A DNA stretch of 43,055 bases from IMG/VR virus record IMGVR_UViG_3300010354_000180, positions 1-43,055 of that record; one strand, written 5' to 3'. Below the pieces are notes generated by a model, which had not been told where the DNA came from, ran no database searches, and saw only the letters and a program-made list of their open reading frames with translations. This stretch comes from a virus. Positions 19,009 through 42,770 of this stretch are shown one piece after another (position 1 is the first letter of the stretch; each line of letters begins with the position of its first letter). The position numbers and the translations under genes were made by a program.

Positions 19009-19863
19009 ATGAAGAAAATCGTCGTCATGCCGGGAGGCTTTCATCCATTTCATGCAGGGCATTATGCATTATACCAATCTGCCCTTGAAGCCTTCCCTGA
19101 CGCCGATGTTTATGTAGCTGCAACTAACGATCAGAAAGCTAGACCGTTTCCATTTAGTATTAAAGAAAAATTAGCTAAATTGGCAGGTGTAGCACCTGGT
19201 CGTTTTATTCAAGTTAAGAGTCCCTTTAAGGCAGAAGAAATCACCAGTCAATACAATCCAAATGAAGATGTATTAATATTTGTACGCAGTGAAAAAGATC
19301 GCAATGAACAACCAAAGCCCGGTGGTGTAAAGAAAGACGGAACTCCCGCATACTTTCAACCATGGACAGGAAAAGATTTAAAACCATTCAGTCAACACGC
19401 ATACATTGATTATCTACCTACAGTAGAATTTGGTCCTGGTATTAAGAGTGCTACTGAAATTCGTAATGCATGGCCTAATTTAAATGACAGACAGAAAACT
19501 GCAATGGTTATGAGTCTATATCCTGTAACACAAAAGAATCCTAAACTTGCAAAAAATGTTGTTGAGTTGTTGAATGTGGGTATGAGTGGTGAACTAGCCG
19601 AAACTATGAACAACCCTAATCAGGACAATTTCATAGACCAAGAAACAGAAAAAATTCTTAAGTATGCTAAAGCACACTACCCACAGTCTGCATCAAAGCA
19701 ACAAGCATTCGTCATGTATGTATTACGTGCATTAAAACACAGCGAACAAGATGATGACGATCAGGACGAAAAGATCAATAAGCTTCAACGTGCTATTAAG
19801 GATTTAGAAGCCAAAGTAAATTCACCATTGCATGAAAATAAAGACTATTTAGATGAAGTATAA
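19009..19863 (+). CDS. HxGH nucleotidyltransferase with helical extension
   Basis: 284 aa. MPGGFHPFHAGHYALY (7-22) gives the HxGH motif (H15-H18) of the cytidylyltransferase/NadD superfamily, which joins a nucleotide to a phosphorylated substrate. The Rossmann-like domain spans ~1-165. KSATEIRN (~residues 147-154) is in the place of the second, ISSTxIR-type motif. Residues ~180-284 are helical and end in a charged coil. The substrate cannot be told. It begins two bases after the histone-like gene and precedes a glycosyltransferase. Confidence 0.7.
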   Translation: MKKIVVMPGGFHPFHAGHYALYQSALEAFPDADVYVAATNDQKARPFPFSIKEKLAKLAGVAPGRFIQVKSPFKAEEITSQYNPNEDVLIFVRSEKDRNEQPKPGGVKKDGTPAYFQPWTGKDLKPFSQHAYIDYLPTVEFGPGIKSATEIRNAWPNLNDRQKTAMVMSLYPVTQKNPKLAKNVVELLNVGMSGELAETMNNPNQDNFIDQETEKILKYAKAHYPQSASKQQAFVMYVLRALKHSEQDDDDQDEKINKLQRAIKDLEAKVNSPLHENKDYLDEV

Positions 19864-22848: not shown

Positions 22849-23976
22849 ATGAAAATCAATCAAATAATCATCAATGAAACTACGACCGCAGGCGCAGTTG
22901 CTACGGTCGCTAAACCAATGGGTGAAACTCAAGTTAGAACCAAAGTCCGCGGTCTAGAGCCAGCTGAAAAAGTCATGAAGGGCAAGGCTAAAAAGCAAGG
23001 CCCATATGCAAATAGCTTAAGTGAAAGTAAAAATAAAGTCGAAGAAGCTAAACTAGATGAAGATGATTTGATTGTTGTACCCGGTCAAGGAATAAAAAGA
23101 AAGACAGGTTTTGTACAGCATGGTCAAAGTCGTGTAGACCATGAAGTTGAAATGGCACGTAGCGATGTATTAGCTACGATGAAAAATGCAAAAGCAATTT
23201 ATCAACTATTAAAAGATCGTAGTGAAGATGAAGGAATTGAAGGATGGGTACAAGAAAAGCTTATCAAAGCAAATGACTATCTAAATTCTGTTAAAGAATA
23301 CTATGATGAAAAAATGATGCGTGAAATGACCGGTGGTGTGATTGCAGCAGGTGGGGTAGGAGAAGGTGTGGCGGAAGGCAAGTTAGGTAGTTTAGCATCG
23401 CCAGCCGGAAGCAGGCTAGCACAAATACAAAGTCAAGCAATGGCATTAAGTAGAAAAGCAAATGCCGTTGGTGTAGGTAAAGAATGGGTACACATGATCA
23501 AAACAGGATCAACAAAAGAAATAGATGCTGCCCTAGACCTAGCATGGGATGAAAGGGACGATGCAGCCTCGACAGGAATATTGACTTCACTTCAAGAAAT
23601 AGTTAATTATTTAACAGGAGAATCTAATTATCTTCCATCTAAAATAAAAGAACAAGGTGTGGCGGAAGGCTCATTAAAAGAAGGGCAGTACGAAATGATG
23701 CTACGCAACGGACAGGTAAAAAAGTTTGTTGCTAAAGACGATGCCGATGCTAAAAGAATCGCTGCCGGCCACGGTGCTAAAAGTGTTATCAAGTTAAAAG
23801 GTGGTGTCCCTGCTGGTAAAGTAGCAGAAGGAGCTAAAGTAGACCGTATGGTTAAGCATATTGCTAAATCAGAACGTGAAACGGGAAAGTCTAGCAAAGA
23901 AGCAGAAAACATTGCTTGGGCAACTGTTAACAAACGTGGCTATTTAGATAATAAGAACAAAAAGAAAGGTAAGTAA
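22849..23976 (+). CDS. Modular capsid-cargo candidate with GVAEG sites
   Basis: 375 aa, highly charged, Ala/Lys/Glu-rich. Leader MKINQIIINE/T resembles the T4 capsid targeting sequence. Modules appear joined by short (V/L)xE sites: SLSE/S (~57-59), GVAE/G at 173-177 and 270-274, and KVAE/G near 325. Between them are helical blocks (QSRVDHEVEMARSD; AIYQLLKDRSEDEG) and a small alpha/beta piece (EMMLRNGQVKKFVAKDDADA). No enzyme motif. I infer a precursor cut by the prohead protease and packaged in the head, as T4 internal proteins are. Confidence 0.55.
   Translation: MKINQIIINETTTAGAVATVAKPMGETQVRTKVRGLEPAEKVMKGKAKKQGPYANSLSESKNKVEEAKLDEDDLIVVPGQGIKRKTGFVQHGQSRVDHEVEMARSDVLATMKNAKAIYQLLKDRSEDEGIEGWVQEKLIKANDYLNSVKEYYDEKMMREMTGGVIAAGGVGEGVAEGKLGSLASPAGSRLAQIQSQAMALSRKANAVGVGKEWVHMIKTGSTKEIDAALDLAWDERDDAASTGILTSLQEIVNYLTGESNYLPSKIKEQGVAEGSLKEGQYEMMLRNGQVKKFVAKDDADAKRIAAGHGAKSVIKLKGGVPAGKVAEGAKVDRMVKHIAKSERETGKSSKEAENIAWATVNKRGYLDNKNKKKGK
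23365..23377 (+). repeat. 13-base repeat GGTGTGGCGGAAG, copy 1
   Basis: In-frame GVAE codons (GGT GTG GCG GAA). The same 13 bases recur at 23656, 25316 and 25592, always in the same reading phase and at module borders. Confidence 0.85.
23656..23668 (+). repeat. 13-base repeat GGTGTGGCGGAAG, copy 2
   Basis: Identical to copy 1. Preceded by CAA, like copy 4, giving a 16-base shared string with that copy. Confidence 0.85.
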
Positions 23977-23977
23977 T

Positions 23978-26002
23978 ATGAGTAGAATATTAAAAGGACT
24001 TACCGAAGCAAAGCTTACAGATTTAGGTCCAGGCGACGAAGCTACATGGCCTGCATACTCAGGTCATCCTAATGATCCACGTGATCCTCCTAGAAGAAGG
24101 TCTAGACCAGACGAACCTAGTGGCGACGATCCATATGACCCATGGGACGAACACTATCGCAGACAAGAAAAAGCAAGGCAGCAATACAAAAAAGAAGTTA
24201 ATGTAACATATTCTGACAAAGAAGGTGTTGCTCCAAATGGAAAAAGATACAATAATACCTTTTTAGTTAAAGCAAAAACACCTTATCAAGGTGATAATGA
24301 AATTTATCAATTCAATGACGCTCATTGGGGCGCTAAAACAATTGTAGATACTGTAAAGAAAAACCCAGAAAAAGAAGGTGATCCATATTTAACAATGGTT
24401 TACTATGTAGACAATCATAAGCATGGTTATTGGAAGCCATGGAAGGATGAACCACCTATCAGTAAGGGTATTCAATTCGAAGCAGAGTTGACCAATGAAG
24501 GTATTAGCGAACAAGATTTAGCCGATACACTTTTTTATAGATTGGAAGCACGTTATCCTGACATAGTAACTAGATATGGACATGAGGTAGTAGGTGATGC
24601 TGTGCTAGATGTTGCTAGTTTTCATGCAGGTGCAGAAGAATTAGGATCTAGTGATATTAGTATAATGATACGTGAAATATTAAAGCGTATTGAAAGTCGT
24701 GGGTTGGATGAGGCACAAAGTGGCACAGGTATGGACCCGACTAGTGCATTACAACAAGCAAGAAAAATTACCAGTCAATTTAAATATGCTGATATGCATT
24801 TAGAAATCATTACTAAAATACAGCTATTAGCAGAACAAGCAGGTGTAGACAAAAGAGATTTAGAATATCTTATTAATGATGTATACGAAAAACAGCGTGA
24901 ATTAGAATCCGCTATCTTTGCACTAGACGAACCATTCGAAGAACTTGTAAGAAAACAAGAATGGAACGATGAAGAGGTAGATGAAGGACAGATTTATTCT
25001 ACAGGCGGCGGCGCTGGTCAAGCTATGCGTTGGTACACACCTAAAGATAATTTAGGTGAGGGTGTAATATCTGAGAACCTACGTAAATGGTTTAAAGAAA
25101 AATGGGTAAGATTCGGTCCAGATGGTAAGATTCGTGGTGACTGTGCTAGAGGCGACGATAGTGAGGGTAAACCTAAATGCTTGCCGCAAAGCAAAGCACA
25201 TAGTTTAGGTAAAAAAGGTCGTGCTAGTGCAGCAGCAAGAAAGCGTAGAGAAGATCCTAATCCAGAGCGTAGTGGCAAGGCTATCAATGTTGCTACTAAA
25301 AAGAAATCCAATGAAGGTGTGGCGGAAGAACAACTAGACGAAAAGTGCTGGGATACTCACAAGCAAGTTGGTATGAAAAGTAAGGGCGGTAAAATGGTTC
25401 CCAACTGTGTACCAAAAGAAAGTGTGACAGAGATGGATAAAAGTGCCCCTCAACCTGGTCGTGATGGACGAGTAAGTCACAGCACCTATGGTTCCAGAGA
25501 CAAAGGTGGTAGTAAAGGACCTGAAAAAGAAGCCAAGCCAATCACAGCAAAAAAGGCTAAACAAGATGCTCTTGATATACTGAAGAAGCAAGGTGTGGCG
25601 GAAGAAAAATGCCCACATTGTGGTGGAGCAATGTTCAGCGAACTAATGATTAACGAAAAGAAAGACGCCTGTTACTATAAAGTCAAGAGTCGTTATAAAG
25701 TATGGCCTTCAGCGTATGCAAGTGGTGCTTTAGTTAAATGTCGCAAAAAGGGTTCTAAGAACTGGGGCACAAAAAGCGAAGGTGTTGAAGAAGCAGCCAA
25801 TCCTGCACAACAAGCAGCAATTGCTATCGCTATGAAGAAAGCCGGTAAAAAACCTAAAGGCGAAAGTGCAATTATGAAAGGTCTAGTAGACGAAACATTA
25901 GGCACCCCTTATCCTGGCACATACGAACAAGAAACTGCAATGATTAAACGCAAAGGTCCACAAAGAATTACAGCAATGACCTACGAATCAAAGAAGAAAT
26001 AA
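23978..26002 (+). CDS. Long modular capsid-cargo candidate
   Basis: 674 aa. Leader MSRILKGLTE/A. Residues ~12-60 are Pro/Asp/Arg-rich. Further blocks are a mixed alpha/beta part (~65-170), helical parts (~175-345), a basic Cys-containing block (LRKWFKEKWVRFGPDGK; CLPQSKAHSLGKKGRASAA, ~368-435) that recalls the phage DUF6321 type, then GVAE (447-450), CWDTHKQVGMKSKGGKMVPNC, a second GVAE (539-542), CPHCGG and YKVKSRYKVWPSAYASGALV, GVEE (602-605), and DETLGTPYPGTYEQE. These read as small independent modules between (V/L/I)xE sites. No active site recognised. Confidence 0.55.
   Translation: MSRILKGLTEAKLTDLGPGDEATWPAYSGHPNDPRDPPRRRSRPDEPSGDDPYDPWDEHYRRQEKARQQYKKEVNVTYSDKEGVAPNGKRYNNTFLVKAKTPYQGDNEIYQFNDAHWGAKTIVDTVKKNPEKEGDPYLTMVYYVDNHKHGYWKPWKDEPPISKGIQFEAELTNEGISEQDLADTLFYRLEARYPDIVTRYGHEVVGDAVLDVASFHAGAEELGSSDISIMIREILKRIESRGLDEAQSGTGMDPTSALQQARKITSQFKYADMHLEIITKIQLLAEQAGVDKRDLEYLINDVYEKQRELESAIFALDEPFEELVRKQEWNDEEVDEGQIYSTGGGAGQAMRWYTPKDNLGEGVISENLRKWFKEKWVRFGPDGKIRGDCARGDDSEGKPKCLPQSKAHSLGKKGRASAAARKRREDPNPERSGKAINVATKKKSNEGVAEEQLDEKCWDTHKQVGMKSKGGKMVPNCVPKESVTEMDKSAPQPGRDGRVSHSTYGSRDKGGSKGPEKEAKPITAKKAKQDALDILKKQGVAEEKCPHCGGAMFSELMINEKKDACYYKVKSRYKVWPSAYASGALVKCRKKGSKNWGTKSEGVEEAANPAQQAAIAIAMKKAGKKPKGESAIMKGLVDETLGTPYPGTYEQETAMIKRKGPQRITAMTYESKKK
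25316..25328 (+). repeat. 13-base repeat GGTGTGGCGGAAG, copy 3
   Basis: Same bases and same phase as copy 1; encodes GVAE at residues 447-450 of the 674 aa protein. Confidence 0.85.
25592..25604 (+). repeat. 13-base repeat GGTGTGGCGGAAG, copy 4
   Basis: Encodes GVAE at residues 539-542 of the 674 aa protein, directly before a CxxC motif. Confidence 0.85.
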
Positions 26003-26465: not shown

Positions 26466-27137
26466 ATGAAGATAAGCGAATTATTGAACGAAGCCTATGT
26501 ACATCCTGATATAGATACTATCCTGCGAAAAAAAGGATATAAATTTTTAGGCAAGGGTGTAGATCAACGTGTCTACGCAGAGCCCAAGTCAGGATTAGTA
26601 TTAAAAATATTTGGTACTTCTCAAGGAAAAAGCGGTAGTGCATCTGAATTAACAAATGCTCAAAAAAGTTTCAAGACATTCTATGATGCAACCCAAGCAG
26701 ATCCTAATAATGAGTTTCTTCCTAATATTATAGCATATACACCCTTCATGTTTAAGGGTAAGCCATATTTACAAATACGCATGGAAAAATTGTTCCCGTT
26801 TACCGGGCCAGATGTAGATGAATGGAACTATACATTAGCTGAATTTGCAGATGATGCAGACAGAGGTATCTATAAATCAGGAAAAGCCTTTGTAGACGGA
26901 TTAGAAAAACAAATCGACAAAGATTCTTACGGTCACACAAAATATGTACAACAATTGGCAATTCTTATAGGAAAAGAAGGCTTAGCAAAGTTATACGATA
27001 CTATTCTTATGTTAAAACGTATTGCTAGAAAAAACAAGTATGTCCTAGATTTACATGACGGTAATTTTATGCTAGGCAATGATGGAACACCTGTCATCAG
27101 CGATCCTTTCTTTATGGGTTGGGGAAGAAGTACATAA
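26466..27137 (+). CDS. Kinase-like protein with capsid targeting leader
   Basis: 223 aa. Leader MKISELLNE/A (cut predicted after residue 9). The rest looks like a small protein-kinase-like fold: FLGKGVDQRVYA (28-39) as glycine loop, VLKIF with Lys47, RMEKLF (105-110) at the hinge, DLHDGN (195-200) as catalytic loop (in place of HxDxxxxN) and SDPF (212-215) in place of DFG. Part of the C-lobe is missing. It may phosphorylate a target or be a pseudokinase. Paralogue of the C-terminal half of the 28710 gene. AAAGGATG precedes the ATG. Confidence 0.6.
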   Translation: MKISELLNEAYVHPDIDTILRKKGYKFLGKGVDQRVYAEPKSGLVLKIFGTSQGKSGSASELTNAQKSFKTFYDATQADPNNEFLPNIIAYTPFMFKGKPYLQIRMEKLFPFTGPDVDEWNYTLAEFADDADRGIYKSGKAFVDGLEKQIDKDSYGHTKYVQQLAILIGKEGLAKLYDTILMLKRIARKNKYVLDLHDGNFMLGNDGTPVISDPFFMGWGRST

Positions 27138-28708
27138 TGAGAGCCCTTGAATTTATTACCGAAAATAAAAGCACCACCATAGAAAAGCTCTACGGTGGTG
27201 ATTATCCTGAGCGTGATGAATTATTTTGGGATCATGTAAGACCCGATGAATTAAATCGTGATCTTACTATTCAGACTATGCCCAAACATAAATTAAAAAT
27301 CATGTTGCAAAGTCAATATCGTGTAGAACACTTAGATGAAATTCTAGATATGATGGATGAAGATCAACAAGCTGTATTGCAAAGATACATGAATGATCCA
27401 AATCTAAGTAATCAAATTATATTAATTGCAGATGATAGAATTATCGACGGTAATCATCGTGCGTTAGCTGCTGCAATGAAGGGCGTACCTATTCATTATG
27501 TAGATTTAGCAGATTTAGATGAGCAAGATGTGACGGAAAACACCTCTAATATACCACAATATCTTTATCATGCTACGTATCGCCCATTATTAAAAAGTAT
27601 TAAAACTCATGGATTAGGTGGTAGTGGTGCCCAAGCAAAATGGGAAGATAGTAAGCCGGGTGTAACGTATCTAGCGTTAGATCCTAATGTAGCAGAAAGT
27701 TATGCGGAAAGTAGCGATGTAGTGCCAGAAGAATGGTTAGATAAAATTATCATATTAAAAATATCAACCAGAGGTTTAGACACACGTAAATTTAAATTAG
27801 ATAGCAATGTTTTAGATAACGAGGGTGATACATTAGAATATCACGGTGTAATACCTATTAACAATATTTCTGTGGTCAAACGGGATATAGACGAAATGGC
27901 ATTGGCCAAGTATCAAACGTTTGGTGACTTTACTAAGCCCGGACCTTTTCGTGGAGCTGATAAAAAGTTAGTTCCGCATCCTAAGAACATACAAAAAGCA
28001 ACTACATTTTTTGAAAATACACCCTACGATTTTCGTCTATTCTTTACTAATGTTCCTGGCTTTGGTAAGTACAGTGAACATGGAGAAATGAATCCCGGTG
28101 AGATTAGAAATATCTTTAATAAAGAACAAGCGGATGAAATAATTAATGGCAGCGAAGATGCTATTACAGTAGTGTTCGTTGGTAACAAAGGTGACAGCAA
28201 AGTAATGATGACACCATGGATCATGGCTCATAGATTTGGACATGCAGTACAAGCAGGAACAAGAATGAAGGGCGGCGGTAGTCCTTGGGTCGCAGCAGAA
28301 GAACATTTCTTTAGAGGTATTAATGAATTACTAAGAGACTTCTATGGCATAGAAAAAAATAATATATTCACTACAAAATTAAATTGGAACTTGCAAAAAG
28401 AATATTCTGCACTTTTTAATGCAATAGGTACACAGCGCAGCAGTAGAACAGGACAAATTAAACGTCCATATGAATTCTTTTATGAATTGTTTGCACAATA
28501 TTTAGGCACCGGTAAAATCACATTAAATCCTTTACCAAAGAAAAAAGAATATGGTCGTAAAGCATGGGGCAGAAGTACACAAAGTTTAAATATGCAACCA
28601 GGCAGTGAAGAAGAATCTCAGTACACAACAGAAATACTTGCAAGAGATATGGAACTAATGTTTGATGATGTGTTATCAAGCAGTGTTGGTAAAATTTTTG
28701 TGATGTAA
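27137..28708 (+). CDS. ParB-like, ART-like and HxxxH multidomain cargo candidate
   Basis: 529 aa from ATG 27137, which overlaps the previous stop by one base; an upstream in-frame TTG is less likely. Leader MRALEFITE/N. Residues ~40-130 look ParB/sulfiredoxin-like (IADDRIIDGNHRALAAAM, DGNHR at 104-108). Residues ~141-255 look like an ADP-ribosyltransferase fold (YLYHATYRPLLKSI, THGLGG, YLALDPNVAESYA). The last ~270 residues contain MTPWIMAHRFGHAVQ (358-372), an HxxxH string near an AAEEH segment that could bind metal but lacks the HExxH Glu. The combination recalls T4 Alt, an injected ART with a capsid leader. Confidence 0.6.
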   Translation: MRALEFITENKSTTIEKLYGGDYPERDELFWDHVRPDELNRDLTIQTMPKHKLKIMLQSQYRVEHLDEILDMMDEDQQAVLQRYMNDPNLSNQIILIADDRIIDGNHRALAAAMKGVPIHYVDLADLDEQDVTENTSNIPQYLYHATYRPLLKSIKTHGLGGSGAQAKWEDSKPGVTYLALDPNVAESYAESSDVVPEEWLDKIIILKISTRGLDTRKFKLDSNVLDNEGDTLEYHGVIPINNISVVKRDIDEMALAKYQTFGDFTKPGPFRGADKKLVPHPKNIQKATTFFENTPYDFRLFFTNVPGFGKYSEHGEMNPGEIRNIFNKEQADEIINGSEDAITVVFVGNKGDSKVMMTPWIMAHRFGHAVQAGTRMKGGGSPWVAAEEHFFRGINELLRDFYGIEKNNIFTTKLNWNLQKEYSALFNAIGTQRSSRTGQIKRPYEFFYELFAQYLGTGKITLNPLPKKKEYGRKAWGRSTQSLNMQPGSEEESQYTTEILARDMELMFDDVLSSSVGKIFVM

Positions 28709-28709
28709 T

Positions 28710-29855
28710 ATGAAAATAAAAGAATTTATAAACGAAGCAGTACTTGATCCCAGTGGATGGGGCAATACGCCATATGGTACGGACATAGATTATTTTGGAC
28801 TACGTGTTCAAATGAAGCCTAGTACTTTCTTAAAGTTAGCACTACCACTAACATCTTCAGTAACAAATCCTGAAGTAGAAAAACATATGAAGGCAGGTGG
28901 CAAGATTGCATATCCAATGCTTGATATTGAGATACCCGATGAATGGCGTGAAGGAGACTTTAGCCAACCTGCCAAAGTTGTAGATCACGAAGGTCGAAAT
29001 AGAATGAAAACTTGGATTGAATTAAAAGGGGATGATCCAATACAAGTTAATATAAGACCACGCGGTGGACTTAGACGTAGAGATTTAAACGATGATTATA
29101 TTCAAGCAATTAGTAATGGGCTTGTGAGTCAACGTGGTAACTTTGTAGACGGTCCGTTATTTCCTACAGAAGATGCGTTAGAAGAAGCAGAAAAGAATAC
29201 TCCAGAATCAAGACAAATTGTTCAAACATTGAAGGATGCAGGCTATAGTCAAATAGGTAGTGGGGCAGACGCTACTGTTTGGATGAAGGATGCAGGACAA
29301 GTACTAAAGATAGTAATGCCTGACAGTCAAGACATTACACAGGCTGCATATACATTTAAAAAGTTCTATGAGTTTTGTATGGCGCATCAAGACTTAGCTT
29401 GTTTGCCTAAGTTTATTCCCATACAAGGTAAAGCTTATACTGAATTCACACTAGGTGATAAACAATATATGCAAATTTCAATAGAGCAATTAAATAAGAT
29501 ACCTAGAAATAGTATACAAGAAGGTATAGTTTGGTTCTTCAGTGATTTTGCAAGTAACAATGTGCCATGGGAACAAGTTGATGAAAAATTAAAATATCCA
29601 ATAACATGGGATGATTTCAATGGTAGATACGCTAATCAATTAGCTGAAAGATGGATAAATCTATCCAGTAAGAGAAACAAGCAAAAATACGCAGAAATGC
29701 AATTACTGTATACCGTAATGAGATTGTTGTATACTACAGGCAAAATAAATAAGATGTACTGGGATTTGCATACAGAAAATGCAATGCTTAGGGGAGACGG
29801 AACAATAGTTATTATTGATCCGTGGTTCGAAAGATATGGTGGTACGATTGATTAA
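28710..29855 (+). CDS. Two-module cargo candidate ending in a kinase-like domain
   Basis: 381 aa. Leader MKIKEFINE/A. Residues ~18-155 are an unknown module (TPYGTDIDYFGLRVQMKPS; DHEGRNRMKTWIELKGD). LEEAEKN is a possible linker, then a kinase-like domain: QIGSGADATVW (181-191), VLKIV with Lys200, DLHTEN (352-357) and IDPW (369-372). The loop motifs parallel those of 26466 (DLHDGN, SDPF), so the two are paralogues. No Shine-Dalgarno site; the start is one base after the previous stop. Confidence 0.6.
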   Translation: MKIKEFINEAVLDPSGWGNTPYGTDIDYFGLRVQMKPSTFLKLALPLTSSVTNPEVEKHMKAGGKIAYPMLDIEIPDEWREGDFSQPAKVVDHEGRNRMKTWIELKGDDPIQVNIRPRGGLRRRDLNDDYIQAISNGLVSQRGNFVDGPLFPTEDALEEAEKNTPESRQIVQTLKDAGYSQIGSGADATVWMKDAGQVLKIVMPDSQDITQAAYTFKKFYEFCMAHQDLACLPKFIPIQGKAYTEFTLGDKQYMQISIEQLNKIPRNSIQEGIVWFFSDFASNNVPWEQVDEKLKYPITWDDFNGRYANQLAERWINLSSKRNKQKYAEMQLLYTVMRLLYTTGKINKMYWDLHTENAMLRGDGTIVIIDPWFERYGGTID

Positions 29856-29865
29856 AAAGGAAAAT

Positions 29866-30300
29866 ATGAAGAAAATAATAACAATAGCAATGTTAGTTGC
29901 AGCATCCAGCGTTTTCGCTCAAAAACAACCTCAAGGTGTTACATATGATGCACAGATACTAAGAGTAAGTGATGGTGATACTGTAGTCATATCAGCGCCG
30001 TTCTTACCAAAACCATTAAAACCAGAATTAGCTGTGAGAATTTATGGTGTTGATACTCCTGAAAAGGGTTTCAGAGCTAAATGCCCACAAGAAGATGCTA
30101 AAGGACAAGCTGCAAGTAAATTCACTAAAGATTTGGTAGCATCCAGTCAAAAGTTTCAAGTGACATTGTATGATTGGGATAAATTCGGTGGACGAGTATT
30201 AGGTGACATTATCTTAAATGGTAAAAGCCTACGTGAAATGCTTATTGCTAACGGGTATGCCAGGGCATATTTCGGGGAAGCAAAACAGAGTTGGTGTTAA
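29866..30300 (+). CDS. Secreted staphylococcal-type nuclease (SNase-like)
   Basis: 144 aa from ATG 29866, chosen because AAAAGGAAA precedes it and it gives a clean signal peptide, MKKIITIAMLVAASSVFA/Q. The SNase fold follows: RVSDGDTVV (33-41), VRIYGVDTPEKG (57-68) with Arg58, Asp63 and Glu66, and GGRVLGDI (108-115) with Arg110, so the key catalytic residues are all present. A Ca2+-dependent nuclease exported to the periplasm or medium could cut incoming DNA or RNA (inference). It sits among cargo genes but has a signal peptide in place of a capsid leader. Confidence 0.85.
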   Translation: MKKIITIAMLVAASSVFAQKQPQGVTYDAQILRVSDGDTVVISAPFLPKPLKPELAVRIYGVDTPEKGFRAKCPQEDAKGQAASKFTKDLVASSQKFQVTLYDWDKFGGRVLGDIILNGKSLREMLIANGYARAYFGEAKQSWC

Positions 30301-30303
30301 TAG

Positions 30304-30310
30304 ATAAATA
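30304..30310 (+). promoter_or_regulatory. Candidate late promoter (GATAAATA)
   Basis: TAGATAAATATACAAT lies directly after the nuclease stop and 6 bases before ATG 30317, with no Shine-Dalgarno site. Confidence 0.55.
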
Positions 30311-30316
30311 TACAAT

Positions 30317-30892
30317 ATGAAAACACATGACTTTGTTAATGAAGCCGCTGCTACTGAACTAGCTAAAAGATTGCCTAGTTTAGAAAAGCATGACTATAAT
30401 ACCATTGACAAACTCATGCAAAACATTGCCAAAAAACATAGAATCACCGGTAAGATTTTGCACGATTTGTTTGTTAAAAAGTATCACTCTACACCTGACA
30501 GTTGGATTAAAAATAAGCTTGACGAAGCTGACGTTGAGTGTGATATGCAAGAAGAAGTTGACAAGTTTGCAGATTGGGCCAGCAAGAAACTACATTTAAA
30601 AACAAGACCAATTATAGAATTGAGTCAGGATACCGAAGAAGCACAGACAAATCATCACACGGGAAGCCATACTGAGGGTGATAACAAAGTTTGGGTATAT
30701 GCTAAAAATAGAAACTTAGTTGATATACTACGCACAGTATTTCATGAGCTAGTTCATGTTAGACAAAGTGAATTAGGAATGATACATCAAGGATCAAGTT
30801 ATCCTGGTAGTCCCATAGAAGCTATGGCTGACATGCTAGCAGGAAAGTACATCAAAATTTACGGCGAGAAAAACAGACACATCTTTCAATAA
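30317..30892 (+). CDS. Zinc metalloprotease-like cargo candidate
   Basis: 191 aa. Leader MKTHDFVNE/A is the closest match here to the T4 internal-protein leader MKTYQEFIAE/A. An N-terminal helical module (~10-68) ends with NKLDE/A, another possible cut. The C-terminal domain has FHELVHVRQ with HExxH (143-147) and EAMADMLAGKY with Glu168 as a plausible third zinc ligand, the layout of gluzincin-type peptidases. A packaged and injected protease is inferred. The stop overlaps the next start by one base. Confidence 0.65.
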   Translation: MKTHDFVNEAAATELAKRLPSLEKHDYNTIDKLMQNIAKKHRITGKILHDLFVKKYHSTPDSWIKNKLDEADVECDMQEEVDKFADWASKKLHLKTRPIIELSQDTEEAQTNHHTGSHTEGDNKVWVYAKNRNLVDILRTVFHELVHVRQSELGMIHQGSSYPGSPIEAMADMLAGKYIKIYGEKNRHIFQ

Positions 30893-32040: not shown

Positions 32041-32631
32041 ATGATTAAACTGTTATTTCCTTTGCCCAGAAATGTGACTGTCGCCTTCAGTGGCGGGGTC
32101 GATAGTGTTGCCGTAGTTGATTTTTTATCTAAGAATCATGACGTAACATGCGCCTTCTATCATCACGGAACTGAGAATAGTGAGAGGGCATTGAAGTTTG
32201 TTAGTCATTTTTGTTCAGACAGAAATCTTCCTATGTTTTTGGGTATCCTCAATCGTGAAAAACCCAAAGATAAAAGTTACGAAGAATTTTGGCGTGAGGA
32301 AAGATATCAATATTTAAGCACACTAGGACCGGTTCTTACTGCACATCATTTAGATGACGCAGTAGAAACATATCTCTGGTCTGCAATGCACGGCAAACCC
32401 AAAGTTCCCAAACTTATTCGCGGTAATGTTATTCGTCCATTTTTGACGACACCCAAGAGTGAATTTATTAGTTGGTGTAAGCGTAAAGAATTGACTTGGT
32501 GCGAAGATTTAAGTAATGAAGATGAACGCTATACTAGAAATTACATTCGTAAAAATCTTGTACCACACGCATTTCATGTCAACCCCGGTCTAAGAAAAAC
32601 CGTGAAGAAAATCATTGAAAATAGTCTTTAA
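32041..32631 (+). CDS. tilS: TilS-like tRNA(Ile)-lysidine synthetase core
   Basis: 196 aa PP-loop N-type ATPase. SGGVDS is at 17-22, AHHLDDAVET at 101-110, then RPFL-x-x-P-KSE and the TilS-type end CEDLSNEDERYTRNYIRKNL (~159-178). Bacterial TilS changes the CAU anticodon cytidine of tRNA-Ile to lysidine so that it reads AUA. This copy keeps the catalytic core but lacks the C-terminal tRNA-binding domains of the ~430 aa bacterial enzyme. It may help decode ATA codons, common in this AT-rich genome, or modify another tRNA (inference). Confidence 0.75.
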   Translation: MIKLLFPLPRNVTVAFSGGVDSVAVVDFLSKNHDVTCAFYHHGTENSERALKFVSHFCSDRNLPMFLGILNREKPKDKSYEEFWREERYQYLSTLGPVLTAHHLDDAVETYLWSAMHGKPKVPKLIRGNVIRPFLTTPKSEFISWCKRKELTWCEDLSNEDERYTRNYIRKNLVPHAFHVNPGLRKTVKKIIENSL

Positions 32632-33283
32632 AGTTTTCTAGAATAAATTTGGCTATCTCTTTGTTACCATCTTCATTCCAATGTATGTCTTTCTTATTAT
32701 TGGGAAATTTTATACACATGATTTTATGATAAAATTGTTTGACAATGTTTTTATCTTGGTTAAGAAGATTTGCAAAATCTAATACAATATAGCTTGTATT
32801 ATGATCTATCAATTTTTTAATGATGCCATGTAACATTAGAACTTGTTGATCCTTATGAATATATGAATTTATGTAGGTAATGTAATAGGTTAGGTAATCT
32901 TTATAAAAAGAATCTATTTCGCTTAACTTAAGCAAAGTATTAAACGTATTTGATCTAATGTTTCCATTATTATTATTTGACAGGTTCAGAATAAAATCTT
33001 CAAATTTAGGTATTTTCTTTTGATCATTTTTTTCAACAACATCGAATCGTTCTGTAGTTGTAGTATTGAATATGACCAAATCAGCTTTATATTCTATAGC
33101 ATGTTCTACTTGTTTTATGATGCAATAATTACTTGCACCAGGAATAGCCAAATTTGTAACTTCAGAGTTTAGTAACTCTGATAAAAATTCTGTATAGTTT
33201 TTGTTAGTACCGAATGAAGAATCCTCTCTTTGATAGAGACCAGTACTGAAACTGCAACCGCACGTTATAATTTTCATAACCAT
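32612..33283 (-). CDS. SGNH hydrolase-like protein on the minus strand
   Basis: 223 aa. Block I is TCGCSFSTGLY (residues ~7-17), the variant GxS of SGNH/GDSL hydrolases. IPGASNY supplies the Asn block, and KDIHWNEDGNKEIAKF the C-terminal Asp/His block. Two more copies of this type lie at 33623 and 40434. Converges with the tilS-like gene and overlaps its end by 20 bases. ATG 33283 or 33277 are both possible; the late promoter TATAAATA is 5 bases before the first. Substrate unknown. Confidence 0.55.
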   Translation of the reverse strand: MVMKIITCGCSFSTGLYQREDSSFGTNKNYTEFLSELLNSEVTNLAIPGASNYCIIKQVEHAIEYKADLVIFNTTTTERFDVVEKNDQKKIPKFEDFILNLSNNNNGNIRSNTFNTLLKLSEIDSFYKDYLTYYITYINSYIHKDQQVLMLHGIIKKLIDHNTSYIVLDFANLLNQDKNIVKQFYHKIMCIKFPNNKKDIHWNEDGNKEIAKFILENFKDYFQ

Positions 33284-33359: not shown

Positions 33360-33623
33360 ATGTCTACACCCAAAACCTTTTCAGGCGATCAAAAAATTAA
33401 GCTTACCCAATTAGTTAACGAAGGCATGGCAGTCATGCATGAAATCGAAACACTACAGGGCGGGTTGAGTGATACTATCAAAGCTGTAGCCGAAGAACTA
33501 GAAGTAAAGCCTAGTGTACTAAAGAAAGCTATTCGTATCGCACACAAGGCTAGCCTTACTCAGACCAATCAAGAACACGATGATTTAAATACTATTTTGG
33601 AAGCTGTCGGCAAAACAATCTAA
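33360..33623 (+). CDS. Small helical DNA-binding protein, DsbA-like
   Basis: 87 aa, all helical: residues ~8-30, 35-50 (LSDTIKAVAEELEVKPSVL) and 50-62 (KKAIRIAHKAS). Size and order of helices, with an AVAEELxVKPxxLKKAIRxAHK core, suit the T4 DsbA type (89 aa), a double-stranded DNA binding protein tied to late transcription. Primary-sequence likeness to T4 is low, so this rests on pattern and on recall of annotated relatives. It lies near the polymerase and clamp and has a strong sigma70 promoter. Confidence 0.5.
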   Translation: MSTPKTFSGDQKIKLTQLVNEGMAVMHEIETLQGGLSDTIKAVAEELEVKPSVLKKAIRIAHKASLTQTNQEHDDLNTILEAVGKTI

Positions 33624-34231
33624 TGCATAGATTGGTATCTTTCGGGTGTTCATATACTTACGGACACGGCTTAAAAGATTGTCACATTGAACCTGACAAA
33701 TTTGGACCATATCCTAGTCAAATGGCTTGGCCATCTCTGTTGTCTGAAAAAATGTGTCGCACTCTAGTTAATACTAGTTCTCCCGGCTCAAGCAACATTC
33801 ATATATTGTGGAAAGTTTTAAATTTTGATTTCCATAATGAAGATATGTGTGTTGTGATGTGGACACACTTTGGAAGAATACCATTTAGCAGATTGTATCA
33901 TGATCCAACTAAAATTGTTTGGGATCATTACGATAATGCATCGTCCTTGCAAATAGCAGAAACTGAGCAAGAAAATTTAGGTATACGAAATTTTATGCTC
34001 ATGCATCATGCATATTTGCATCTTTCACAAAAAGGAATAAAGCACCTTTTTGTCATTGCTACTAAAGATAGTAAAATTTACCAATGTCCTAATGCGTTAC
34101 AAACTAAAAGTTTATTCATGGATTTAACTTTTCCTAAAATAGATGTAGCATTAGATAAAAGGCATCCGGGACCCAAAAGCCATGCAGCCATGGCATCATT
34201 ACTGTATAATAAGATAAATGAGTTATATTGA
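33623..34231 (+). CDS. SGNH hydrolase-like protein
   Basis: 202 aa. Block I is FGCSYTYGHGL (residues ~6-16), SSPGSSN (~50-56) is the Asn block, and LDKRHPGPKSHAAM near the end gives an Asp-x-x-His pair. The catalytic Ser/Asp/His set is thus plausible. It shares the GCS(F/Y) opening with the 32612 and 40434 proteins. Overlaps the stop of the DsbA-like gene and runs 14 bases into the polymerase gene. Activity and substrate unknown. Confidence 0.55.
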   Translation: MHRLVSFGCSYTYGHGLKDCHIEPDKFGPYPSQMAWPSLLSEKMCRTLVNTSSPGSSNIHILWKVLNFDFHNEDMCVVMWTHFGRIPFSRLYHDPTKIVWDHYDNASSLQIAETEQENLGIRNFMLMHHAYLHLSQKGIKHLFVIATKDSKIYQCPNALQTKSLFMDLTFPKIDVALDKRHPGPKSHAAMASLLYNKINELY

Positions 34232-40227: not shown

Positions 40228-40434
40228 ATGTACAAAGAAAAGATTCGTAGACTTGAAAATGTTCTTGCAGAACAAACTAGGACAATTGATCTTCTTAAAG
40301 AAGATACTAGTAAAGCATCAGAGTTAAAAATCTTGATAGAACAACGTTCAACTACCTTGAGTGAACTATCACAATTGCGGCGTATGCAATATGAAGAAGA
40401 ACATGAGAGGGTTCATTTTGACGATGATCGCTAA
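40228..40434 (+). CDS. Short coiled-coil protein
   Basis: 68 aa from ATG 40228 with GGAGG just upstream; an upstream in-frame start inside the oxygenase gene is less likely. Heptad-like helix (IRRLENVLAEQTRTIDLL) to the acidic end HFDDDR. No domain recognised. Its stop overlaps the next gene start. Confidence 0.5.
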   Translation: MYKEKIRRLENVLAEQTRTIDLLKEDTSKASELKILIEQRSTTLSELSQLRRMQYEEEHERVHFDDDR

Positions 40435-41279
40435 TGAAGTATAAAAAGATCATAACTAGTGGATGCAGTTTTAGTGATCCATCCACACCCTATAGTTGGC
40501 CTATACAACTAGAAAATTATGTTAACAGGACATATCCAGACGTAAAGTTTGATCACCGTGGATTGAGTAGTCAAGGTCAAGATTTAATACAAAAGAAAGC
40601 AATACATGCTGTCCATGATGCTCTCGCCGAAGGATATACTACTGAGGATTTAGCTGTATTTGTTATGTGGTCATCTTCGGATCGCAAAGCGTTCTATGTA
40701 AACAATCAAGACTACATTAACTCTATCATTGAAAACTGGGGAAACTCCACTCAAGGTTGGCAGTTGCAGTTTGGTGATCTACGTAATAAATCAAGTAACC
40801 CAAATCAAATACAAACCAAGAGTGATTATAACAACACCATCAACTATAATGCTGACGGTGGGTGGTTAGTTACATCAGTGCATACATTAGATAATTTAAA
40901 ACCATTTAGAGATTATTACCTAATGGGATCAAGACAAGGTTTATTACCATTGGGAAATATTCACGAAAGCCTTGAGAATATCATCATGCTACAAAATTTT
41001 TGTCAGGCAAAAGGTATCAAACTCTATCAACAATATTTTATGGATTTGGTACACCGAGATTTTTTAGCAACCAAAGAACATCAAATTATAAAATATCTGT
41101 ACGATCAATTAGACCATTCTACTTTTATTTTACCAAATGGTTCTATTCATGGGTACCTCGAGGGTAACCCTGAATGTTTCAAAAGTCCCAATGACGCACA
41201 TCCCAACGGATTGGGTCATCGTCGTTGGTTAGTTGAGGTAATATTACCTCACATAGAAGAAGATGATTTTTTCCTATAG
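40434..41279 (+). CDS. SGNH hydrolase-like protein
   Basis: 281 aa. TSGCSFSDPS (residues ~8-17) is block I. GLSSQGQD could hold the Gly/Asn block, and SPNDAHPNGLGHRRW (~252-266) gives the typical Asp-x-His ending of SGNH enzymes. It is larger than its two relatives at 32612 and 33623. Substrate unknown; possible deacetylase or esterase of a glycan. Confidence 0.6.
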   Translation: MKYKKIITSGCSFSDPSTPYSWPIQLENYVNRTYPDVKFDHRGLSSQGQDLIQKKAIHAVHDALAEGYTTEDLAVFVMWSSSDRKAFYVNNQDYINSIIENWGNSTQGWQLQFGDLRNKSSNPNQIQTKSDYNNTINYNADGGWLVTSVHTLDNLKPFRDYYLMGSRQGLLPLGNIHESLENIIMLQNFCQAKGIKLYQQYFMDLVHRDFLATKEHQIIKYLYDQLDHSTFILPNGSIHGYLEGNPECFKSPNDAHPNGLGHRRWLVEVILPHIEEDDFFL

Positions 41280-41806: not shown

Positions 41807-42016
41807 ATGGCAAAACCTGAAATCAAACCCAATCCTCGTGTCAATCAAATTTTTGAGGATTTGGAAAAGTATCTAGAATTTTGTAAAAAGTTTGGATACA
41901 AATTTGATGAAAGCGAACTATACAGCAATAAAAGTTTTGCATATCGGCAGTTCACTAAATATCTTACAGGGAAACCTGTAAAAGATATGTGGGAAACTGA
42001 TGCAAAAACCGAGTAA
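41807..42016 (+). CDS. Small basic protein of unknown function
   Basis: 69 aa from ATG 41807, with AAGGAG seven bases upstream; the frame extends further up without a better start. Helical (VNQIFEDLEKYLEFCKKFGYKFD) with a Lys/Tyr-rich end. No known domain. Overlaps the next gene by 17 bases. Confidence 0.5.
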   Translation: MAKPEIKPNPRVNQIFEDLEKYLEFCKKFGYKFDESELYSNKSFAYRQFTKYLTGKPVKDMWETDAKTE

Positions 42017-42770
42017 AGTTGTATTAGTGACCGGAGGGTTCGATCCTATACACTCCGGTCACATTGAATATTTTAAAGCAGCAAAAGAATTAGGTGACAT
42101 ATTAGTTGTAGGACTTAATTCTGATGCATGGTTGGCCCGTAAAAAGGGCCAACCTTTTATGCCATTTAATGAACGACAAAGTATTGTTGAACATTTGTAT
42201 ATGGTAGATCATTGCATACTATACAATGATGATGACGGGTCTAGTATCGAGGCTATTAAAAATGTTAGGGTCATGTACCCAGATTGTGAAATTATTTTCG
42301 CAAATGGCGGAGACAGAACTAAAGAAAACATACCTGAAATGCGTCATCAAGATTCAAACTTAAAATTTGAGTTTGGAGTAGGCGGGACTAACAAAAAGAA
42401 TAGCTCCAGTTGGATATTACAAGAATGGAAAAATCCTAAATATAAACGTCCGTGGGGCTGGTATCGTGTGCTAGATGATAAATCTGGTTATAAAGTAAAA
42501 GAATTGGTTATAGAACCGGGCAAAAAACTAAGTATGCAACGACACTTTTTAAGATCAGAACACTGGTATGTTCTTAAGGGTAAATGTGATATTGCAACTA
42601 TCTACAATAATGTTAAAATGACAGTTACGAAAGAAGTAAACGAAACCTATATTATTGGTCAAGGTGTGTGGCATCAAGGTCAAAATAACGGTGATGAATA
42701 TTGTCACATACTTGAAGTCCAATATGGTGACGAATGTGTAGAAACAGATATAGAGAGGCGTGATGCGTAA
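42000..42770 (+). CDS. Nucleotidyltransferase-cupin fusion
   Basis: 256 aa. Residues 1-~135 form an HxGH nucleotidyltransferase (VTGGFDPIHSGHIEYF, H18-H21), close to the RfaE/TagD type. The second motif is degenerate (KKNSSSWILQEW). Residues ~143-256 form a cupin of the mannose-phosphate isomerase type II kind: RPWGWYRVLDD, then GKKLSMQRHFLRSEHWYVLKG and GVWHQGQN. This would combine sugar or polyol phosphate activation with isomerase-like binding. Likely glycan precursor synthesis (inference). It precedes another glycan-type gene. Confidence 0.75.
   Translation: MQKPSKVVLVTGGFDPIHSGHIEYFKAAKELGDILVVGLNSDAWLARKKGQPFMPFNERQSIVEHLYMVDHCILYNDDDGSSIEAIKNVRVMYPDCEIIFANGGDRTKENIPEMRHQDSNLKFEFGVGGTNKKNSSSWILQEWKNPKYKRPWGWYRVLDDKSGYKVKELVIEPGKKLSMQRHFLRSEHWYVLKGKCDIATIYNNVKMTVTKEVNETYIIGQGVWHQGQNNGDEYCHILEVQYGDECVETDIERRDA

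Follow-up and report, generated by a model that had tools for sequence, protein, structure and literature searches.

In a 43,055-nucleotide fragment of a virus record (IMG/VR IMGVR_UViG_3300010354_000180, positions 1 to 43,055; "the window" below means this whole 43-kb stretch, with 37% GC and T4-like genes present), two adjacent open reading frames (ORFs), 22849-23976 and 23978-26002, carry four copies of one short DNA word. Taking our best explanation as a whole, we consider it probable that hundreds of large, uncultured T4-related phages form a group with a combinatorial system of capsid polyproteins built of exchangeable modules, in which this one word serves both as recombination seam and as cleavage site. 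The initial annotation of the window had suggested such a double role for a short element, and the present analysis supports it, its predicted cleavage half only indirectly.

The 13-base repeat GGTGTGGCGGAAG pointed out in that annotation stands exactly at 23365, 23656, 25316 and 25592, on the + strand only, and the stretch shared by all four copies is in fact 15 bases long (AAGGTGTGGCGGAAG; Table 1). A scan of the window gave no fifth copy of the 13-mer even with up to two mismatches, and none of 100 dinucleotide shuffles reached four matches (mean 0.29). All four copies encode G-V-A-E in the frames of the two ORFs, that is, in one phase throughout, as had been claimed. The impression that GTG and GCG are uncommon codons also proved right, since in 48 window ORFs GTG accounts for 100 of 806 Val codons (12.4%) and GCG for 40 of 854 Ala codons (4.7%). 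The similar VAEG noticed near 23820 with GTA GCA does read AAA-GTA-GCA-GAA-GGA (KVAEG, 23818-23832).

The copies, called linkers below, had been placed at module borders, and relatives indeed join each of the four junctions differently. The module upstream of linker 1 recurs in L203, L178, L042 and L116 (L and G numbers are our handles for loci and records), each time with other downstream modules, and the module downstream of linker 2 is found at 92% identity in L147 and L111 after other upstream modules. For linker 3, the upstream module is 98% identical in L061 and L068, where the downstream modules differ, and the downstream module is 88% identical in L049, there after another module. The module following linker 4 (EKCPHCGG...) is common to L134, L209, L061, L034, L049, L143 and L087, after different upstream modules. 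There are also two seam-like sites with non-consensus codons: at KVAE, homologous blocks of L034, L096 and L108 start at residues 324-325, L108 having GVAEG there, and the module after GVEE is led in another locus by a capsid-targeting sequence (CTS; MFINDLFDNKKIQE-AANAAQQA) and precedes linkers elsewhere.

An exact scan of public viral contigs for the 15-mer returned at least 120 stretches. Among the matches listed there are 185 copies, 183 of them lying in the longest open frame and reading GVAE, and the consensus word is about 21 bp long (AAGCAAGGTGTGGCGGAAGGC, K-Q-G-V-A-E-G); aligned copies are conserved only from about -6 to +14 around GGT, with nearly random flanks. All of the 26 records searched whole (17-mer, at most two mismatches) matched, with 1-10 copies each on one strand per record, except for one opposite-strand copy in G005; this set had been selected by the word itself, and two of its members (the records of L003 and L031) are probably there by chance. 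These two loci (58% and 67% GC), apparent chance matches, were excluded from the mutation spectrum, the counts of linker ORFs and module families, the CTS counts, offsets, homology ends, recency and same-junction pairs, and included in the 15-mer frame count, flank alignment, partner families, flank-identity pairs and the comparison of linker identity with divergence; L128, L129 and L205, also GC-rich, were retained among the 96 codon-neutral sites discussed below. Seven named relatives contained no exact copy of the word, a 37-nt linker stretch, compared by blastn with 50,697 phage records, matched none of them above chance, and a tblastn search with the 375-aa protein against named phages gave no match. 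Literature searches found no description of such a system. Two further leads were set aside: the exact 21-mer occurs once in genome contigs of 84,980 species, in an apparently ordinary bacterial nucleoside-deaminase gene, which we regard as coincidence and not as a host origin, and L114, despite its isolate-looking IMG number, is an out-of-frame chance match in 60% GC DNA.

The evidence for exchange comes from 625 junctions with at most two mismatches, or 576 after identical contexts were dropped. Among families with at least two members, several downstream partners (at least two) were seen for 78 of 88 upstream families, and several upstream partners for 88 of 96 downstream families. The 254 linker ORFs have 1-9 linkers each at a median linker-to-linker spacing of 81 aa, and their modules fall into 613 families (125 with at least two members), one of which (family 45, 63 aa) is seen 14 times and has 13 neighbours on its left and 12 on its right. 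When the upstream module is shared and the downstream one differs (199 pairs), DNA identity runs through the word and is about 28% directly after it; in the 205 mirror-image pairs it is about 28% directly before it. Internal ends of DNA homology between linker ORFs (n = 1847) fall at the query linker in 39.7% of cases versus 6.0% by chance, and 47 of the 71 ends of matches with at least 95% identity lie at a linker in both ORFs. Single events can also be recognized. L215 has the order A-B and L081 the order A-X1-X2-B, a module insertion; a module single in L183 is present in two tandem copies in L142, where the middle linker follows the usual module end and shows GTC-GCA, the rare form found in the 5' linker, which places the crossover inside the word. 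These sequence comparisons show that the flanking modules have been swapped, inserted and duplicated many times over, and that the breakpoints fall at the word. Shuffling through the repeat, which the initial annotation had named as an alternative to recent duplication, thus stands as a general rule, and recent duplication only for some cases such as the L142 tandem copy. Its proposed search of related genomes gave the same word, with the same codons, at borders of differing modules in many contigs, homology breaking there; the outcomes it named as contrary, ordinary codons and a common module order with diverged border DNA, were looked for and not found: both codons are uncommon in the window, and in related phages it is the module order that differs and the border DNA that is the same.

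Mosaic junctions could also arise as chimeras of metagenome assembly at a shared short word, given that the phage carriers seen are all metagenome contigs, that no named phage has the word and that an assembler could plausibly branch at a 21-mer. We nevertheless hold this explanation to be very improbable. Chimeras would still presuppose that the repeated word is real; contigs with different metagenome numbers supply 68 same-junction pairs (two contigs that had been fetched twice are not counted), 8 of which have diverged by at least 3% on at least one side; and the mutation spectrum given next speaks of selection at the protein level. Since some metagenome numbers may be reassemblies, the same-junction pairs lower the worry about assembly and do not remove it.

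The encoded peptide had been thought to fit a prohead protease site, and this prediction gains indirect support from several sides. The prohead proteases of T4 and of giant phages cleave after Glu within short motifs, according to the accessible parts of the sources (PMC9026906, PMC5694885). In a mutation spectrum of 574 junctions, 347 were exact and 136 one step away from the word. Counted from the presumed cut, the single-step variants at P4 Gly comprised 6 silent and 31 changing ones, those at P3 Val 27 and 12 (10 Met, 1 Leu, 1 Ala), those at the Ala position 17 and 13, and those at P1 Glu 28 and 2 (Fisher test of P1 versus P4, p = 9e-11), which points to selection on Glu and on the hydrophobic residue two before it, and to weaker selection at the other two positions. 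The word mutants thereby retain the same pattern as the hydrophobic-x-E rule of T4-type prohead proteases. A gp21-family S77 prohead protease (PF03420) scored above cut-off in 6 of 24 records, and gp23 is present in the same six; neither gene was found in the remaining 18, the window among them, which may be fragments. The capsid proteins of all six (6/6) have L-x-E ahead of the presumed mature start, a position assigned by analogy.

A structure model of the 375-aa protein (AlphaFold) has a mean predicted local distance difference test score of 64 and a predicted template modelling score of 0.31, a low confidence for which only local order was used; in it, linkers 1 and 2 lie in low-confidence segments predicted to be disordered (residues 168-187 and 259-277), and separate structured blocks are predicted at 98-167, 185-255, 280-315 and 325-362. 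Additionally, a motif resembling a twin-arginine translocation (Tat) signal starts 2-6 residues past the linker in five of eight linker-led motif hits, L140 and L210 being the same sequence, and the Pfam family TAT_signal comes near cut-off in L140 and L183. Because a Tat signal functions at the N terminus, its placement after the linker fits release by cutting. The signals themselves, DRRGFLRG and SRRGFLKG, stand in mid-polyprotein 2-6 residues after the linker Glu in L162, L183, L094 and L140/L210.

N termini of the type MRASEFITE or MKINEFITE resemble the T4 CTS. The strict pattern M[KR]x(1-3)[EDQN][FILV][ILVFM]xE was present at 157 of 7534 N-terminal candidates versus 4 of 15880 internal Met; it was found in 23 of 134 linker ORFs, so that many of these lack it, and in 78 of 1157 other ORFs. 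The N terminus of T4 IPI reads MKTFKEF, and T4 IPIII likewise has a CTS form. A CTS-led segment is matched by 91 of 604 linker-led modules, and the commonest offset between the two is 0, both starts then lying directly after Glu (18 cases). With these homologues, the mutation spectrum, gp21 in the group, the disordered linkers and the Tat-like signals taken together, GVAEG would be a cleavage site of the prohead protease, cut between Glu and the last Gly. One may object that the linkers are uncut hinges in multidomain injected proteins of the polyvalent kind, as is suggested by their predicted disorder and by the presence of the unprocessed packaged N4 virion RNA polymerase in the polyvalent set (Iyer et al. 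2017, PMC5512222, in the portion at hand). This we judge to be quite unlikely, for selection acts on the P1 Glu and the P3 hydrophobic residue and not on the flexible Gly, the same module is known both CTS-led and linker-led, and Tat-like signals adjoin the linkers.

That identity at the DNA level exceeds what protein selection needs had been asserted from the four window copies, and a scan for KQGVAEG with free codons bears it out. Among 96 distinct sites in newly fetched loci (which are not a random phage sample, each having been found via at least one KQGVAEG), 65 use exactly the one 12-mer GGTGTGGCGGAA, against an expected 0.75%; of the 96 sites, 82 encode K by AAG, against a background of 34%, and 70 use GGC for the last G, against 29%. 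GVAE outside these hits is identical in 92 of 132 copies (17 encodings), and the variants DVAE, SVAE and AVAE are often one or two bases off the same word. Control tetrapeptides are encoded in many different ways (GVAA, 16 encodings in 17 copies; GVAK, 10 in 12; GLDE, 13 in 15). So is FITE, a CTS peptide presumably cut by the same protease, with 13 encodings in 19 copies, which means that protease use does not explain the DNA identity of the linkers. The peptide alone does not require this identity. A recurrent protease site combined with codon bias could at least appeal to the protein-level selection on Glu and the hydrophobic position; we can hardly credit it, since nearly every copy uses the two uncommon codons, the encoding of FITE and of control tetrapeptides varies, and the identity extends to K and to the P1' Gly; the codon-neutral scan already contradicts this reading.

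Third-position identity of linkers is flat (0.75-0.89) across the whole range of module divergence and about the same as that of unrelated junctions (0.853), so linkers do not age with their modules, a flatness that is partly built in because junctions with more than two mismatches were left out. Of 23 records, 10 have a gene of RecA/UvsX type. The simplest reading of the identity would be a joint pool kept alike by mutual exchange, in which recombination works best between matching copies.

The concerted identity between unrelated modules, the single phase, the use of mainly one strand in each record, the exact module insertions and an ORF resembling an HNH endonuclease (by reading) downstream of gp23 in G002 would also suit a specifically recognized DNA site, the target of a homing-type endonuclease or of a module-mobilizing recombinase, whose recognition keeps the DNA constant. 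We regard this as unlikely, though not strongly so. No position of the word is fixed and silent changes are common (GTA 25, GAG 28 and GCA 14 of the 136 single-step variants), the word has no evident dyad symmetry, and no connection between the linkers and a recombinase gene emerged, though none was sought systematically. As an observation of its own, L242 has an HNH-endonuclease-like ORF (by reading) just after the capsid gene gp23, where T4 has segD. The G-rich composition of the word (GG-TGT-GG-C-GG-AA-GG, with four GG runs when Gly follows) further recalls a recombination hotspot signal, either a Chi site, such sites being G-rich, or a two-tetrad G-quadruplex. Such a signal is scarcely believable here: the first GG is the one most often broken, by 31 changing variants of Gly, the second is lost in the 25 cases of GTA for GTG, the mutation spectrum already suggests that silent changes which break GG are tolerated evenly, the fourth run is missing in two of the four window copies, and the word lacks the Caulobacter Chi GCGGTGGT as given in the accessible part of PMC5443536, Caulobacter perhaps not being the host.

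The process that we propose for these capsid polyproteins may then run as follows. Small modules are strung in frame by the one nearly invariant word of about 21 bp, and homologous or annealing recombination between its copies would make the module exchanges; since the phase of the word is fixed, no exchange would shift the reading frame. A gp21-type prohead protease of the phage itself would cut V-A-E-G after Glu, so that within the head the shuffled product would be separated into its modules, which would then be delivered together with the DNA in the manner of T4 internal proteins. Identity of the word may be kept by the more frequent recombination of copies that match the pool, or by exchange so frequent that copies are overwritten. 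Cleavage, packaging and the homogenizing force are all deduced from sequence and are put forward conditionally. More tentatively still, as a possibility in which we place limited confidence, the word may be a universal in-frame joint of cassette exchange, kept identical by recombination or by a dedicated enzyme, through which phages trade injected effector domains that the prohead protease cuts apart at the joint.

Several observations weigh against the system as proposed. Its distribution is patchy: among 27 records picked by capsid gene only 5 match the word (at most two mismatches), these 5 belong to the 8 records that exceed 100 kb, in 4 of them a match has at most one mismatch, and the 318-kb record G036 (L266) has no copy with up to two mismatches. 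The window fragment itself lacks gp21 and gp23. Linker identity does not rise with module relatedness, which fits homogenization and is in part built in. If identity were selected by recombination, recent junctions should be more exact, and this prediction failed (57 of 92 versus 152 junctions with 92 exact, p = 0.89). Minimal efficient pairing segments are 31-34 bp for RecA and 23-27 bp for Red-beta (PMC3945230, in the part available), and the word falls short of these lengths, with 15 bases shared here and a consensus of about 21. Some 60% of the homology ends are found elsewhere than at linkers. Finally, the offset between CTS-led and linker-led starts is exactly 0 in only those 18 of 91 cases and at most 5 residues in 31, the rest being scattered. 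As a separate matter, G036, whose capsid protein is 83% identical to the query and which is yet without the word, is a natural reference against which to study how the system was gained or lost.

Among known systems, the internal proteins and Alt of T4 (CTS and gp21; PMC9026906) are like the present one in CTS-like N termini with hydrophobic-x-E, in a T4-type S77 protease and gp23 within the group, and in DNA-linked delivery as the likely purpose; so far as that source is at hand, the T4 proteins are processed near their ends, whereas here the presumed site recurs inside long ORFs. Unlike in T4, many modules per ORF are joined by a DNA-identical seam. In the modular theory of phage evolution, conserved boundary sequences are short stretches of shared border DNA targeted by homologous recombination, and they lie between genes; the word described here sits within ORFs, in a single phase, and its peptide is a presumed protease site. 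Polyvalent proteins, known from phages and from conjugative elements (Iyer et al. 2017, PMC5512222, as far as its accessible text goes), are long virion proteins of 2 to 15 domains, among them kinases, ADP-ribosyltransferases and peptidases, expected to act early in infection; ParB-like domains also count among the hallmarks of the set. Linker ORFs likewise have several domains per polypeptide in varied architectures. That account deals with described families and mentions no repeated junction word, "linker" and "shuffling" each occurring 0 times in the main text at hand; here most modules have no Pfam family and one DNA word joins them. The shuffling of phage protein fragments (PMC10684548) is likewise an ongoing exchange between phage proteins, and the available text of that paper discusses neither linker nor microhomology (0 occurrences of each term).

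How phages rapidly make new injected or head-borne proteins is an open question. If the joint is the site of both recombination and cutting, this would explain why random exchange gives usable products, the frame being kept and the modules freed. Because one word marks many seams, boundaries in mostly unannotated proteins can be read from the DNA and exchanges dated and counted, and a reservoir of small unknown domains, likely acting early in infection, becomes searchable by a single pattern.

Table 1. Features of the window that bear on the repeated word and the module polyproteins
Feature	Coordinates	Strand	Basis and details
Linker 1, AAGGTGTGGCGGAAG	23363..23377	+	Exact match; GVAE at 23365-23376, residues 173-176 of ORF 22849
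Linker 2	23654..23668	+	Exact match; GVAE at 23656-23667, residues 270-273 of ORF 22849
Linker 3	25314..25328	+	Exact match; GVAE at 25316-25327, ORF 23978
Linker 4	25590..25604	+	Exact match; GVAE at 25592-25603, ORF 23978
Seam-like KVAE, non-consensus codons	23818..23829	+	Residues 324-327 of ORF 22849
Seam-like GVEE, non-consensus codons	25781..25792	+	Precedes module AANPAQQAAIAIAMKKAGKK
Module polyprotein ORF, 375 aa, two linkers	22849..23976	+	Module-wise homologues; structure model
Module polyprotein ORF, 674 aa, two linkers	23978..26002	+	PHROG profile matches
Capsid-targeting-like N terminus MKINQIIINE	22849..22878	+	Sequence
Possible capsid-targeting-like N terminus MSRILKGLTE	23978..24007	+	Hydrophobic-x-E; outside the strict pattern
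CTS-like-led neighbours without linker	26466..30892	+	ORFs 26466 (MKISELLNE), 27137 (MRALEFITE), 28710 (MKIKEFINE), 30317 (MKTHDFVNE)

Within the two polyprotein ORFs, the homologous blocks of the 375-aa product are residues 1-160, 266-328 and 324-375, and the 674-aa product matches eight PHROG families, all of unknown function, with the best stretches in different parts of the protein. Among the linker-free neighbours, 26466-27137 and 28710-29855 match PHROG 15752 (T7 0.7-type protein kinase; E = 4e-7 and 6e-8), and their products are likely head-borne kinases. These kinase-like neighbours support, without proving, the idea of head-borne effectors; kinase matches are confined to them, and in 16 linker ORFs from other loci 9 had any Pfam hit at E 0.01, mostly weak or to domains of unknown function, GNAT, LysM or GP88. 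The ORF 27137-28708, led by MRALEFITE, has a stretch of YLYHAT... type that is ADP-ribosyltransferase-like by reading, with no Pfam or PHROG match at E 0.01.

Elsewhere in the window, the DNA polymerase has its nearest counterparts from named phages in Sinorhizobium phage Phosso (48%) and Agrobacterium phage Atu_ph07 (46%), with RaK2-kind Klebsiella phages (43%) lower in the list. Near the window start, ORF 133-825 has a long, collagen-like run of GVSGxSG-type repeats. Three dissimilar proteins (32612-33283 on the - strand, 33623-34231 and 40434-41279) start with GCSxSxG/GCSYTYG-type sequences and are possibly SGNH-hydrolase-like by reading, and cytidylyltransferase-like genes stand at 19009-19863 (PF01467) and 42000-42770 (by reading, with a cupin-like tail).

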